Source of the DNA: Lachnospiraceae bacterium
Lineage (GTDB): Bacteria > Bacillota > Clostridia > Lachnospirales > Lachnospiraceae
Direction: 5' to 3'
Length of the DNA: 64,000 nt
NCBI GenBank assembly: GCA_018384375.1
Contig: JAHAYJ010000032.1
Span: 1 to 64,000, forward strand
Below are positions 11,977 to 55,200 of the stretch, one piece after another (positions within the stretch are counted from its first letter, which is position 1; the number at the start of each line of letters is the position of its first letter). Under the pieces are notes generated by a model. That model saw only the letters and a list, made by a program, of their open reading frames with translations, was not told the DNA's origin and did not search any database. A program made the translations under genes and the position numbers.

Positions 11977-12312
11977 TTGTGAAATGACAGAGGCTATGAT
12001 AAGATGATAACCATCAAAACTGAATACGGTAACAAAAGCAATGAGAAGGAAGAGTAGCTGAATGCGGGAAAACAGAGAACTGCCGGTTGGTGCGAGGCAG
12101 TCAGAAGCAGATAGTGAACTGGCCTTTGAGCAGCTGACCGAAAGCAGTTGTATAAGCAAGTAGGCTCAGACGGTCCTCCCGCCGTAGAAGGGGAAAGGCA
12201 TGTTTGTGCCGATGAGTGCATGGCCTTCGGGTCATGAAGTAGAGTGGTACCGCGTATGATTTACGTCTCTATAGGATTATTGAAAAGATCCTGTCGGGAC
12301 GTTTTTTGCTTT
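11977..12312 (+). promoter_or_regulatory. Leucine T-box leader of leuA
   Basis: This 560-bp gap is filled by a promoter (TTGTGA 11977-11982, 17-bp spacer, TAAGAT 12000-12005) and a complete T-box transcription-attenuation leader. Visible parts are the Stem I distal region (AGAGAACTGCC ... GGTTGGTGCGAGGCAGT, near 12074-12101) and the specifier loop GTGAACTGGCCTTTGAG with CTG (Leu) at 12119-12121. The T-box sequence AGAGTGGTACCGCG is at 12241-12254. A terminator stem (about 12264-12305) is followed by a T run. Uncharged tRNA-Leu would pair with both sites and allow readthrough into leuA. The specifier was read by eye from the conserved GAA-NNN-GCC context and agrees with the downstream gene. 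Confidence 0.93.
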
Positions 12313-36300: not shown

Positions 36301-37089
36301 ATGAGACATATTCCGCTGAAAAACGCATTTAATGTTCGTGATATGGGAGGATATCCCACAACAGACGGTAAAAGTACAAAATGGGGTATGCTGTATCGAA
36401 GTGATGCGCTATCTTCCCTGACAGAAGAGGATTGGCAGGTGCTGAAGGCCCGCAAAATTCATACGGTGATAGATCTGCGCAGCCTTTCAGAGATATCAGC
36501 AGCACCGGTGCAGGTACCGGAGGGAACGGAATATGATCACTTTTCCCTGATGCCGGAGATGGATAAATTGGGAATGGATTTTCGGGAAATGGGTACTGAG
36601 AAAATAATTGAAAGTATGAAGCTTGATTATGGGAAATCGCTGTTCCGGGGAGTCTCATGCTGCGCCCGCATTCTGGAGACTATCCTGAAAAGAAGTGAGG
36701 TGGGAAGTGTTCTTTTTATGTGCTCTGCAGGGAAGGACAGAACCGGAATCATTGCGGCACTCATTCTCTATCTGTGTGATGTTGTCAGAGAAGATATCAT
36801 TGCAGATTATATGGTCAGCAGTGTTTACAATACCAACGGCATCAATAGAAAAATCAAGGCCATGCCGGAAGAGATCAGAAAGCTTATCCCGGATCCCAGG
36901 CTGATTGACGACTGCCTGGATTCAAAGCCGGAGACCATGATGCAGCTGCTTTGCGAAATGGAAGCAGGGGATATCAGAACCGCGCTTGACAAGGCGGGTT
37001 TTTCGACTGCCTGTCAAAAGCAGTTGAAGGAAAAAATGACAGGTCTGGCAGAAGAAAATAATCATGAAAATATATTGACAAATAATTAA
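36301..37089 (+). CDS. Tyrosine-protein phosphatase (Y_phosphatase3 type)
   Basis: A 262-residue soluble phosphatase of the LipA/IphP-like family. It has the N-terminal NVRDMGGYPTTDG motif, LYRSDAL and VIDLRS, and the Cys-x5-Arg loop CSAGKDRTG (nucleophile Cys141). Members dephosphorylate tyrosine, serine or phosphoinositide substrates; many bacterial ones have unknown targets. ATG 36301 is one base after the carB stop, with GGGAG inside the carB end, so it is co-translated with carB. No functional link between the two is known to me. Confidence 0.93.
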   Translation: MRHIPLKNAFNVRDMGGYPTTDGKSTKWGMLYRSDALSSLTEEDWQVLKARKIHTVIDLRSLSEISAAPVQVPEGTEYDHFSLMPEMDKLGMDFREMGTEKIIESMKLDYGKSLFRGVSCCARILETILKRSEVGSVLFMCSAGKDRTGIIAALILYLCDVVREDIIADYMVSSVYNTNGINRKIKAMPEEIRKLIPDPRLIDDCLDSKPETMMQLLCEMEAGDIRTALDKAGFSTACQKQLKEKMTGLAEENNHENILTNN

Positions 37090-37113
37090 CGATATGCTAT
37101 GATCATCCTATCA

Positions 37114-37243
37114 GATAAAAGGGAGTAGCTTATATCCCGGGATATATTTGAAACGTCAGGACGATGATAGCATCCGTTTCAAATCAGGCAAACTGTAGCA
37201 AGACTTTTATCGTAGCGTAAATGCTGCGGGAAAGTCTTTTTTT
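37114..37243 (+). promoter_or_regulatory. yybP-ykoY (Mn2+) riboswitch with terminator, upstream of hflKC
   Basis: The aptamer starts GATAAAAGGGAGTAGC (37114-37129) and ends GTAGCAAGACTTTTATC (37195-37211). This matches the conserved GGGGAGTAGC ... AGCAAGACC core of the yybP-ykoY class, which binds Mn2+. P1 pairs GATAAAAG with CTTTTATC perfectly. The expression platform is a terminator whose 5' arm AAGACTTT (37200-37207) overlaps P1 and pairs with AAAGTCTT (37231-37238) before a T run. Ligand binding would hold P1 and block the terminator, an ON switch. The downstream genes are hflK and hflC. Confidence 0.88.
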
Positions 37244-37277
37244 ATGCGAATGGAAACTTTGTTTCCGCAGCATTTAC
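37217..37277 (+). repeat. 13-bp inverted repeat overlapping the riboswitch terminator
   Basis: GTAAATGCTGCGG (37217-37229) and CCGCAGCATTTAC (37265-37277) are perfectly complementary. The first arm lies in the loop of the riboswitch terminator, the second just before the hflK ribosome binding site. The long-range stem encloses the terminator 3' arm and T run, and could act as an alternative fold. Confidence 0.7.
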
Positions 37278-37298
37278 CAAAACAAAGGAGGAAAAGAT

Positions 37299-38378
37299 AT
37301 GTTCGGAAAGAAACCAAACAATGTTTATGAACAAAAGGAGCCGGGAAGAATGGGGACAACCATCGGCAAAATTGCAGGAATCGTAGTGGGATTTTTTGTT
37401 GTGATCTACCTGCTTGCAGGAAGCATTTATTCTTTGAAGGAGAATGAATACGCGGTAATCAGTACCTTTGGGGTACCTAAGGTTGTGGAGCAGTCCGGTA
37501 TTCACTTTAAGGTTCCTTACGTGCAGAGAATGCGTAAGGTGCCTAAGACCATCAACGGATTTCCCATTGGCTATCGCGCAGACACAGATGAATCTGTGGA
37601 CTCTGAATCCTTTATGATTACCAGGGATTACAATTTCGTGAATGTGGACTTTTATGTGGAATATAGAGTGACTGATCCGGTCAAATATCTTTATGCATCG
37701 GAAAGCCCGGTAGATATTCTGAAAATGCTCACCCAGAGCTATATCAGAGATACCATCGGCTTATATGATGTAGACAGTGTGATCACCACAGGAAAGAATG
37801 AGATTCAGGCATCGATTAAGGAAAAGATCGTCGGGCGTCTGGAACAGGAGGATATCGGTGTCCAGCTGGTGAACATTACCATACAGGATGCAGAACCGCC
37901 TACCCAGGAGGTTATCAGTGCTTTCAAAAATGTAGAAAATGCAAAGCAGGGAAAGGAAACCTCCATCAATAAGGCAAACCAGAAGAGAAACGAGGATATT
38001 CCGGCAGCCAGAGCACAGGTGGATGAAACCTTAAAGACGGCACAGGCGCAGGCCGAGGAGAGAATCAATGAGGCAAAGGGACAGGTGGCAAGGCTGAATG
38101 AGCTCTATGCGGAATATCAGAAGTATCCTCTGATCACCAAGCAGAGAATGTTCTATGAGACAATGGAAGATATTCTTCCCGATATGAAGGTGATCATTGA
38201 AAAGAGTGACGGCTCCACCCAGACTATGCTTCCGCTTGAGTCCTTTGTGGATCTATCTGCAGCAGAAGGAACCGGAGGGAATGCAGGGGCAGGAGGCCTT
38301 GGCACATCCTACGGAGCAACATCCGGAAGCTATGGAGGCAGTGACACAGAGAATACAGAAGAAACAATAGAAGAATAA
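37299..38378 (+). CDS. hflK: SPFH/band-7 protein HflK-like
   Basis: A 359-residue membrane protein. One N-terminal helix (about 25-47) precedes a band-7/SPFH domain (about 50-215: LKENEYAVISTFGVPKVVEQ, ITRDYNFVNVDFYVEYRVTD, EQEDIGVQLVNITIQDAEPP). A long coiled coil (about 225-290) and a Gly/Ser-rich C terminus (about 320-359) follow. With HflC it forms a cage that, in E. coli, surrounds the FtsH protease. ATG 37299 has AAAGGAGG; an in-frame ATG at 37221 lies in the riboswitch leader. FtsH is not nearby. Control by a Mn2+ riboswitch is the notable feature. Confidence 0.93.
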   Translation: MFGKKPNNVYEQKEPGRMGTTIGKIAGIVVGFFVVIYLLAGSIYSLKENEYAVISTFGVPKVVEQSGIHFKVPYVQRMRKVPKTINGFPIGYRADTDESVDSESFMITRDYNFVNVDFYVEYRVTDPVKYLYASESPVDILKMLTQSYIRDTIGLYDVDSVITTGKNEIQASIKEKIVGRLEQEDIGVQLVNITIQDAEPPTQEVISAFKNVENAKQGKETSINKANQKRNEDIPAARAQVDETLKTAQAQAEERINEAKGQVARLNELYAEYQKYPLITKQRMFYETMEDILPDMKVIIEKSDGSTQTMLPLESFVDLSAAEGTGGNAGAGGLGTSYGATSGSYGGSDTENTEETIEE

Positions 38379-38400
38379 GCAGGAAAGAGAGGAACAAACG

Positions 38401-39264
38401 ATGAAGAAAAAGTCAGTTTTTATAGTTGCAGCCATAGTCTTACTGGCACTTTTTATCATAGATTCCAGTATGGTAGTTACCAACCCGAACGAATATACGG
38501 TGATCAAGCAGTTTGGGAGAATTGAAAGTATCCGTCAGGAGCCGGGACTGAGCATGAAGATTCCCTTTATCCAGACAACGGAGAAAATTGAGAACGAGGT
38601 GCTTCTGTATGACCTCGCAGTCAGTGATGTGATGACCAAGGATAAAAAATCCATGATCGCAGACTGCTTTGTATTATGGAAGATTGAGGATCCCTATAAA
38701 TATACCCAGACCTTAAGTGCCCAGAAGAGCAATGCAGAATTCCGTATTGATACCATTACCTATAACAGTCTGAAAAATGTGATCAGCAGTCTGAGCCAGG
38801 AGGAAGTGATCAGCGGACGTGACGGGGAGCTTGCAAAGGCAATACAGGACAATATCGGGGATACCCTGGAGCAGTACGGAATTGAGCTTCTCGCAGTGGA
38901 GACCAAATCCCTGGATCTTCCAGATGAAAACAAGAATGCGGTCTATGAGCGTATGATTTCCGAAAGAAATAATATTGCAGCTACCTACAAGGCAGAGGGC
39001 GAGGAGGAAGCAAAGGAAATTTCCAACAATACCAATGCGGAGATCATCGTGATGCAGTCAGAGGCAGATGCCCAGGCGGAGGAGATCATTGCAAAGGGTG
39101 AGGCAGAATACATGCGTATCTTAAGCGAAGCCTATAACGATCCGGAGAAGGCTGATTTCTATATTTTCCTTCGTTCCCTGGATGCAGCCAAGGCGACAAT
39201 GACGGGAAATAATAAGACGCTCATTATTGATGAAACATCGCCGATTGCTCAGATATTCTATTAA
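38401..39264 (+). CDS. hflC: SPFH/band-7 protein HflC-like
   Basis: A 287-residue partner of HflK. The N-terminal helix (about 5-22) is followed by an SPFH domain (about 25-185: VTNPNEYTVIKQFGRIESIR, AVSDVMTKDKKSMIADCFVL, QYGIELLAVETKSLDLPDEN). A coiled coil (about 190-245: EGEEEAKEISNNTNAEIIVM) and a conserved C-terminal FYIFLRSLDA region follow. It starts 22 bp after hflK with AAAGAGAGG before the ATG. HflKC modulates membrane-protein quality control; in Firmicutes its role is little studied. Confidence 0.94.
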   Translation: MKKKSVFIVAAIVLLALFIIDSSMVVTNPNEYTVIKQFGRIESIRQEPGLSMKIPFIQTTEKIENEVLLYDLAVSDVMTKDKKSMIADCFVLWKIEDPYKYTQTLSAQKSNAEFRIDTITYNSLKNVISSLSQEEVISGRDGELAKAIQDNIGDTLEQYGIELLAVETKSLDLPDENKNAVYERMISERNNIAATYKAEGEEEAKEISNNTNAEIIVMQSEADAQAEEIIAKGEAEYMRILSEAYNDPEKADFYIFLRSLDAAKATMTGNNKTLIIDETSPIAQIFY

Positions 39265-39269
39265 ATCCA

Positions 39270-39329
39270 TTGCAAAAATAAATGCCCTATGTTATAATGA
39301 AAAAGTCGCAAATGATAAAAAATTAACAA
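39270..39329 (+). promoter_or_regulatory. Promoter and Rex-like operator of the butyrate operon
   Basis: TTGCAA (39270-39275), 17-bp spacer, TATAAT (39293-39298). At 39312-39329 lies ATGATAA-AAAA-TTAACAA, which matches the Rex consensus TTGTTAA-N4-TTAACAA at 12 of 14 positions with one perfect half-site. It lies just downstream of the start point, suitable for repression relieved by high NADH. Rex control of this operon is known in other Clostridia. Confidence 0.65.
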
Positions 39330-39378: not shown

Positions 39379-40563
39379 ATGGCAAAGAAAGTAGTTTTGG
39401 CCGGCGCATGCCGTACTGCTATCGGTACTATGGGTGGTTCTTTAAGCACAACACCTGCTGCAGAACTCGGCGCAATTGTAATTAAGGAAGCTTTAAACAG
39501 AGCAGGTGTAGCACCTGAACAGGTTGACCAGGTTTACATGGGCTGTGTAATCCAGGCAGGACAGGGACAGAATGTTGCCCGTCAGGCATCTATCAAGGCT
39601 GGTCTTCCGATTGAAGTACCGGCTGTTACCATGAACGTTGTTTGTGGTTCCGGTCTTAACTGTGTGAACCAGGCTGCACAGATGATCATGGCCGGTGATG
39701 CTGATATCGTAGTAGCCGGTGGTATGGAAAATATGTCCATGGCTCCTTATGCAGTTCCTCAGGCACGTTTCGGATATAGAATGAACAACGGTGTTCTGGT
39801 TGACACCATGATCAAGGATGCTCTTTGGGATGCATTCAATGACTATCATATGATCACAACAGCAGACAATATCTGCAGAGAATGGGGACTTACAAGAGAA
39901 GAGCTTGATGAGTTTGCATTAAAGAGCCAGCAGAAGGCTGAGGAAGCGCAGAAGAACGGTGCATTCGACGCAGAAATCGTACCTGTTATGGTTAAGAAGA
40001 AAAAAGAAATGATTGAATTTAAGGTGGATGAAGGCCCTCGTGCAGGTTCTACCATTGAAGGTCTTGCAAAGCTTCGCCCGATCAATCCCGATGGATTTGT
40101 TACGGCAGGTAACGCATCCGGAATCAATGACGGTGCAGCAGCGATCGTTGTTATGAGCGAAGAGAAGGCAAAAGAGCTGGGTGTTAAGCCTATGGCTACC
40201 TTTGTAGCAGGTGCTCTTGCAGGTGTAAGACCCGAGGTTATGGGTATCGGTCCTGTGGCTTCTACAAAGAAGGTTATGGCAAAGACAGGAATGAAGATCG
40301 AAGACTTTGATATCATCGAGGCAAACGAAGCATTTGCAGCACAGTCTGTTGCAGTTGGTAAGGAGCTTGGCATTGATGTTGACAAGCAGCTCAATCCTAA
40401 CGGCGGTGCAATTGCACTGGGACATCCTGTGGGAGCTTCAGGCTGCCGTATCCTTGTAACACTGCTTCACGAGATGCAGGCTAAGGGTGCTAAGACCGGT
40501 CTTGCAACCCTGTGTATCGGCGGTGGTATGGGATGCTCTACAATCGTTAAGATCGAAGATTAA
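39379..40563 (+). CDS. thl: Acetyl-CoA acetyltransferase (thiolase)
   Basis: Condenses two acetyl-CoA to acetoacetyl-CoA, the first step of butyrate formation. The 394-residue protein has the nucleophile Cys89 in VVCGSGLNC, the [11 protein letters not shown] motif, the base His in GHPVGASG, and the second Cys in [11 protein letters not shown] 39379 follows GGAGGAAAGAGATA. It leads the operon thl-crt-hbd-bcd-etfB-etfA. A second thiolase at 57.3 kb is very similar, particularly at the N terminus. Confidence 0.97.
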
Positions 40564-55029: not shown

Positions 55030-55200
55030 TGTTCTGTTGGGAAAAGAGATTTCCCTGACTCTGGAGAGTCCCTGGAATGACAGGGCGCCGAAGGTGTACG
55101 GCAGTCTGCGACTGCTAATCTCTCAGGCAAAAGGACAGAGCATTCTATATGCATGTTCTACTCTTTAGAGGGCTGATGATTCATCAGCTCTTTACTTTTT
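55030..55200 (+). promoter_or_regulatory. Single-aptamer glycine riboswitch with terminator
   Basis: The core GGAGAGTCCC (about 55063), GCGCCGAAGG (55085-55094) and CTCTCAGGCAAAAGGACAGAG (about 55120-55140) defines one glycine aptamer. TGTTCTGT (55030-55037) pairs with ACAGAGCA (55135-55142). A small hairpin GGGAAA/TTTCCC (55039-55055) takes the place of a second aptamer. The platform is a terminator (55167-55200; arms AGAGGGCTGATGA / TCATCAGCTCT with T run). It controls the alanine/glycine symporter gene downstream. Confidence 0.93.

Follow-up and report, generated by a model that had tools for sequence, protein, structure and literature searches.

A predicted yybP-ykoY (Mn2+) riboswitch before hflK-hflC and other SPFH genes in Lachnospiraceae

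Introduction

HflKC is a regulator of FtsH, and to our knowledge the signals to which HflKC and bacterial flotillins respond are poorly defined. Two lines of work in Bacillus subtilis connect FtsH to manganese physiology at the protein level. According to the parts of the TerC study drawn on here (PMC10550928), FtsH and flotillins co-purify with MeeY (YkoY) and with its paralogue MeeF, and cells that lack both MeeY and MeeF depend on FtsH for viability. According to the portions used of a second study (PMC7231995), high Mn2+ with low Mg2+ promotes the degradation of the transporter MgtE by YqgP-FtsH.

Mn2+ is also sensed by RNA. In the yybP-ykoY riboswitch class, as set out in the sections of the published work drawn on here, Mn2+ docks loop L1 on loop L3, stabilising helix P1.1 and blocking a terminator; stabilisation of P1.1 by Mn2+ against the terminator is described in this way for members from Xanthomonas oryzae and Lactococcus lactis (PMC6754395, PMC11087558). 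The Mn2+ site of the L. lactis RNA, in the corresponding portions of PMC9190785, consists of G9, U39, C40, A41, U44 and C45, with N7 of A41 as the selective contact and a backbone contact at U44.

Here, a leader placed before hflK-hflC is examined in a window of 64,000 nucleotides (the whole stretch of DNA that was analysed: positions 1 to 64,000 of contig JAHAYJ010000032.1, assembly GCA_018384375.1) from a Lachnospiraceae gut bacterium. The RNA class is already known; its recurrent placement before SPFH genes (hflKC and flotillins) is the part that appears new, as judged from openly licensed literature, in which no account of a Mn2+ or yybP-ykoY riboswitch before hflKC or flotillins was found. 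An initial annotation of this DNA, made from the sequence alone, had likewise known of no described case of a Mn2+ riboswitch linked to hflKC, and the same literature yielded none.

Materials and methods

Sixty related genomes with HflK were searched, giving 28 genus loci (counting that of the window) whose HflK match reached 76% identity or more. Covariance model R1 was built from 23 hflK leaders alone, including the window leader. Covariance model R2 was built from 23 of the 24 loci found with the Rfam model RF00080 (all except L050), cut back to roughly the extent of the R1 matches; its alignment was our own, made with MAFFT, and its structure came from RNAalifold. By sequence clustering, no SPFH gene lies behind the R2 training loci.

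Of 397 family genomes searched with R1, 136 gave a match at E<=0.001. From the matches listed (to near E 6e-5), 144 were examined, leaving aside the window genome, G060, G128 and G750 (contig edge). The target was taken to be the longest ORF starting within 800 bases, and one was found for 143 of the 144 (none for L266). Targets were grouped by sequence similarity, and Pfam was run on representatives. For the HflK tree, 20 controls were picked by hand and not at random, 18 ranking in the upper part of the list of HflK matches and two in the lower.

Results

Positions 37075-37243 of the window contain a promoter match and a complete predicted yybP-ykoY (Mn2+) aptamer that overlaps an intrinsic terminator, and hflK and hflC come next (Table 1). 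The NCBIfam equivalog cut-offs for hflK and hflC are both passed, and the genes stand in tandem, K then C. The initial annotation had described two SPFH genes with intact ribosome binding sites, and this description holds: both products carry Band_7, AAAGGAGG lies just 5' of the ATG at 37299, which is most likely the hflK start, and GAGAGGAA was found 5' of hflC. A listed hflK ORF start at 37221 was discarded because it falls within the terminator, whereas a ribosome binding site precedes 37299. A gene of the tyrosine phosphatase family lies upstream of the leader, and the next ORF on the same strand starts at 39379, with a promoter-like site of its own at 39270-39298. Three FtsH genes above the family cut-off are present in the window genome. 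Elsewhere in the window, a T-box leader (12032-12273) and a glycine riboswitch aptamer (55051-55148) score above their Rfam cut-offs.

Table 1. Features of the hflK-hflC locus, in window coordinates
Feature	Position	Strand	Evidence
Sigma-70-type promoter, TTGACA-17-TATGAT	37075..37103	+	11/12 consensus, TG before -10; consensus match, start site not mapped
RNA leader	37109-37243	+	Between promoter match and hflK
Predicted yybP-ykoY (Mn2+) riboswitch aptamer	37109..37214	+	R2 58.3 bits, E 3.8e-11; R1 120.5 bits (element among R1's 23 training rows)
P1 (P1.1 switch helix) 5' strand GATAAAAG	37114..37121	+	98.4% of cells paired, 23 sequences
Loop L1 GGAGUA and P1.2 5' strand GCU	37122..37130	+	GNGAGUAGCU invariant 23/23; minimum-energy fold of window aptamer
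P2 hairpin	37132..37145	+	94.8% of cells paired; double changes C-G/U-A
P3.1 / L3 (GUCAGGAC + C) / P3.2 arm	37146..37184	+	Double changes in 4/9 P3.1 pairs; L3 U,C,A...C invariant 23/23
P4 hairpin CAG...CTG	37185..37195	+	97.1% of cells paired
AGCAAGAC and P1 3' strand CTTTTATC	37197..37211	+	Block GUAGCAAGACUUUUAU invariant 23/23
Intrinsic terminator, 5' arm spanning P1 3' strand	37201..37243	+	-17.2 kcal/mol plus 7 T
hflK (SPFH)	37299..38378	+	Band_7; TIGR01933 204.1 bits, cut-off 159.4
hflC (SPFH)	38401..39264	+	Band_7; TIGR01932 155.9 bits, cut-off 134.4

The full leader was found in 23 of the 28 genus loci, the window counted. Among the other five, L020 and L024 have no leader and L007 retains the 3' part only; contig ends interrupt L023 and L025, and the L025 genome has a leader, L362, at the end of a contig. 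When the named structure was laid over the 23-row alignment, 96.3% of its cells were paired and eight pairs were changed on both sides (33 such cells), values reached by none of 500 shuffles. Versions of the structure slid along the alignment paired at most 40.5% of cells; this control is biased in favour of the structure, which had been drawn from the first sequence. The count of further pair types was not above that of shuffles (146 of 500 were as high), one P3.1 pair fails to form in 11 of the 23 leaders, and at least five of them (L008, L009, L021, L022 and L028) have a minimum-energy fold that differs in part from the drawn aptamer. Together, the number of loci with a full leader and the covariation confirm that the leader is conserved beyond chance.

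Direct reading places GGGAGTAGC at 37121-37129 and AGCAAGAC at 37197-37204, and P1 is a perfect helix of 8 bp (37114-37121 with 37204-37211). The conserved core and perfect P1 reported by the initial annotation are thereby borne out, and the blocks GNGAGUAGCU and GUAGCAAGACUUUUAU are invariant in 23/23 leaders. Energy alone folds the window aptamer into P1, L1, P1.2 and the arms P2, P3.1-L3-P3.2 and P4 of a four-way junction. From the published numbering and the L. lactis sequence, we take U39, C40, A41, U44 and C45 to be equivalent to U37156, C37157, A37158, A37161 and C37162, and G9 to G37123. A37158 then corresponds by position to the Mn2+-binding adenosine A41, and the equivalent of U44 in the window leader is an A. 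The Mn2+-site letters U, C and A and the last C of L3, as well as G37123, do not vary in any of the 23 leaders. The class feature of conserved L1 and L3 loops with an equivalent of the Mn2+-binding adenosine thus appears to be present.

A search with RF00080 over the region had been set beforehand as the refuting test, and it gave no match in the window, either at the gathering score or at E<=10. This miss is not counted as a refutation because RF00080 also gave no match, at E<=5, to the mntP riboswitch of the same genome. Its sole match in that genome is an unrelated place of 8.6 bits, its 24 matches in 146 order-level genomes are all below the cut-off, and one of its alignments, from the mntP control search, stops near P4 and lacks AGCAAGAC and the P1 3' strand. 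The Rfam miss of the window element reflects the RF00080 model. Because real Mn2+ riboswitches escape that model here, a survey relying on it would give too low a count for the Mn2+ regulon of the family.

The two models built for this study find each other's loci. Of the 24 RF00080-found loci, R1 recovers 22 at E<=0.02 (all but L033 and L050) and 20 at E<=0.0021. R2, in turn, finds the window element at the score given in Table 1, and it scores the other 22 leaders of the genus at 40-61 bits; no R2 match at E<=10 was obtained in L007, L020, L023, L024, L025, L031 or L032. The mntP riboswitch of the same genome scores 60.5 bits with R2, and the protein encoded downstream of it is PF02659 (Mntp). 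These reciprocal matches, the conserved L3 letters and the covariation support the prediction that the window element belongs to the yybP-ykoY class, as the initial annotation had proposed, and its recurrence before hflK in 13 genus groups (see below) points the same way.

Two further predicted Mn2+ riboswitches were seen in this genome. The one before mntP (G000:C124:4321-4416, L344) is an R2 match that is absent among the R1 matches listed, and the other (G000:C59:9707-9819; L087, L345) precedes a gene for the beta-subunit of a Na+-transporting oxaloacetate decarboxylase (OAD_beta).

The terminator stem pairs 37201-37216 with 37223-37237, leaving A37209 bulged, and is followed by a T-run at 37237-37243. 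Its 5' arm, as claimed from the first reading, spans the P1 3' strand (37204-37211), and the two helices are therefore mutually exclusive. This overlap recurs in 23/23 leaders, each of which has a terminator stretch of -17.2 to -24.1 kcal/mol with a T-run, so that the P1-versus-terminator expression platform of the class is likewise present. Across the 23 leaders a fold with P1 forced is less stable than the free fold by 7.1-12.6 kcal/mol, and because of this cost termination (OFF) is taken to be the default state. A second hairpin (37217-37232 with 37262-37277) was considered as an extra regulatory layer and dropped, as it is not general among relatives: the inverted repeat at 37217-37277 forms an unbroken duplex of 16 pairs in the window (G-U allowed), spanning the terminator loop and 3' arm and beyond, and the longest such duplex in the 22 other leaders has 4-12 pairs, mostly no better than shuffles.

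The genes behind the riboswitch were then compared across the family. The 143 targets comprise 61 P-type ATPases, 20 Na_Ca_ex proteins, 14 HflK, 12 OAD_beta, nine small proteins without a Pfam match, five CNNM/CorC, four flotillin-type proteins, three AI-2E_transport, two YccF, two ABC, one TerC and 10 singles, some of which (a transposase, for example) are probably not true targets. The initial annotation had stated that this class usually controls exporters and had suggested a survey of gene neighbours; in the present survey, 14 targets are hflK and four are flotillin-type genes, and most of the others are cation pumps or exchangers. When scanned one by one, all 18 SPFH proteins have Band_7, and a Flot domain is also present in all four flotillin-type loci, as seen for the fourth in the full-length protein. 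Among the 14 hflK loci, L149 (genome G029) is from a congener and is the same place as L013, a training row of R1. At three to four SPFH genes per ~3000, less than one SPFH target would be expected among 143; a binomial calculation with an assumed rate of 0.0015 gives 4e-29, a figure that serves as a guide only because the genomes are related.

All 19 SPFH leaders that the family surveys yielded are confirmed by R2 (15 before hflK, including congener L149 and the leader in G128, and four before flotillin genes), and R2 gives a match in none of 20 hflK loci that lack an R1 match. Each of these 19 leaders contains CGUCA; the AGACTTTT terminator arm is found in 18, and in L225 the arm is visible further on, past an earlier AGAC. 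A second SPFH-like ORF lies within ~105 bases of hflK in 12 of the 14 loci fetched, and by our reading it is hflC in these 12; the four that were checked have Band_7. Of the other two, L147 has a truncated second ORF with no Pfam match, and the sequence of L148 ends too soon.

The small-protein group mentioned above lies behind nine Mn2+ riboswitches (L191, L227, L240, L258, L273, L277, L282, L284 and L289), and four of its members, when scanned, had no Pfam match. Paired riboswitch matches were seen 410 bases apart in G287 (L146) and ~1.15 kb apart in G472 (L062/L145).

At E<=1.7e-78, HflK is encoded in 128 of the 397 family genomes; relaxing the cut-off to E<=1e-25 gives 129, one of them by a weak match only. 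Among the matches listed, R1 has a match before hflK in 16 of the 128, from 13 genus groups, and none before hflK in the other 112, 20 of whose hflK loci were fetched and gave no match with R1 or R2. Four further HflK genomes have a weaker R1 match, which is on a contig other than that of hflK. Riboswitch control is not essential, given that some close relatives lack the leader, namely the congeners L020 and L024 and also G758 (HflK identity 83%). Mapping the riboswitch label onto a tree of 36 HflK proteins takes at least seven changes, four of them forced by starred branches. A single clade of riboswitch-bearing HflK was rejected by an AU test on the quick tree (p 5.5e-6), and the pairing was therefore gained, or gained and repeatedly lost, more than once.

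A motif scan of genome contigs returned 48 records. The motif precedes hflK in Parablautia muri, P. intestinalis and many records of uncultured Lachnospiraceae, and precedes other genes in Butyrivibrio, Faecalimonas and Geobacter-type records. In Butyrivibrio (L291, L304, L310, L333 and others) the riboswitch lies before a CitMHS/ArsB-type transporter gene, as scanned for L291. In Geobacter, a leader carrying this motif stands before a gene for a Peptidase_M48 membrane protease that reads as HtpX (L341:1779-2633, minus strand); HtpX is among the co-purifying proteins in the portions of the B. subtilis TerC work drawn on here (PMC10550928).

Discussion

We consider it highly probable that the leader is a transcriptional yybP-ykoY Mn2+ riboswitch that switches hflK-hflC on as cytosolic Mn2+ rises. 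The predicted ON response is inferred from the stabilisation of P1.1 by Mn2+ in the X. oryzae and L. lactis members; it had already been suggested by the initial annotation, and the reciprocal covariance models, the conserved Mn2+-site letters and the recurrence before hflK back it. When Mn2+ is absent, the terminator would form and hflKC would be off; when Mn2+ is present, P1 would persist and RNA polymerase would read through into hflKC. HflK and HflC would then alter FtsH proteolysis at the membrane under Mn2+ excess, perhaps clearing mismetallated or import-competent membrane proteins, or jammed translocons. HflKC may thus be raised to handle membrane damage or transporter turnover in Mn2+ excess.

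The alternative that fares best, and which we nevertheless regard as unlikely, is a yybP-ykoY fold whose ligand has changed, or which answers also to pH or another divalent ion, such that hflKC would follow a signal other than Mn2+. The targets are membrane scaffolds and not transporters, and the position beside the C just before GUCA, always U in the RF00080-found set, varies between A, U and C among the hflK leaders. However, L3 U, C, A and C and the L1 block show no variation among the 23 leaders, every SPFH leader of the family surveys retains CGUCA, and cation pumps, exchangers, TerC and MntP are among the other targets found with these models. A conventional attenuator under the control of a protein or of translation, which only looks like a riboswitch, is very improbable: such a device needs nothing beyond a terminator and a competing helix, and the reciprocal covariance-model matches and the four-way junction with conserved loops exceed it. 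Least probable is a decayed riboswitch, inherited without function, which the partial leader of L007 and the leaderless L020 and L024 might suggest, but which the compensatory double changes, the invariant loops and the terminator in 23/23 leaders oppose.

Taking the leader as a Mn2+ riboswitch, we lean towards a wider reading in which the Mn2+ riboswitch regulon of Lachnospiraceae has an SPFH branch. HflKC and, separately, flotillins would be Mn2+-responsive, the hflK pairing would have been gained (or gained and lost) more than once, and Mn2+ efflux would be paired with remodelled FtsH proteolysis and membrane microdomains. An RNA sensor directly before HflKC and flotillin genes names a candidate signal for these proteins, Mn2+, and its use there points to a link of manganese stress to membrane upkeep.

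Several features of the leader are those of described yybP-ykoY members (RF00080; L. lactis yoaB and X. oryzae): P1.1, L1 GGGAGUAG, P1.2, P2, P3.1-L3-P3.2 and P4 around a four-way junction, the U-C-A...C Mn2+ site, the overlap of P1 with the terminator and, as predicted here, the ON logic. The differences are that the window element precedes hflK-hflC and not an exporter gene, and that the RF00080 model does not match it. In the B. subtilis MeeF/MeeY system, as presented in the parts of PMC10550928 drawn on here, co-purification and genetics similarly tie the TerC protein MeeY (YkoY, whose gene names the riboswitch class) to FtsH and to SPFH scaffolds; the link there is at the protein level, and those parts describe no riboswitch before hflKC or flotillin genes. 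In the YqgP-FtsH/MgtE system of the same organism the Mn2+ sensor is a domain of the YqgP protein and not an RNA, and HflKC is absent from the portions of PMC7231995 used here, but there too FtsH proteolysis at the membrane protects from Mn2+ toxicity. The arrangement in Lachnospiraceae would connect metal stress with membrane proteolysis through gene control, in agreement with these protein-level links in B. subtilis.
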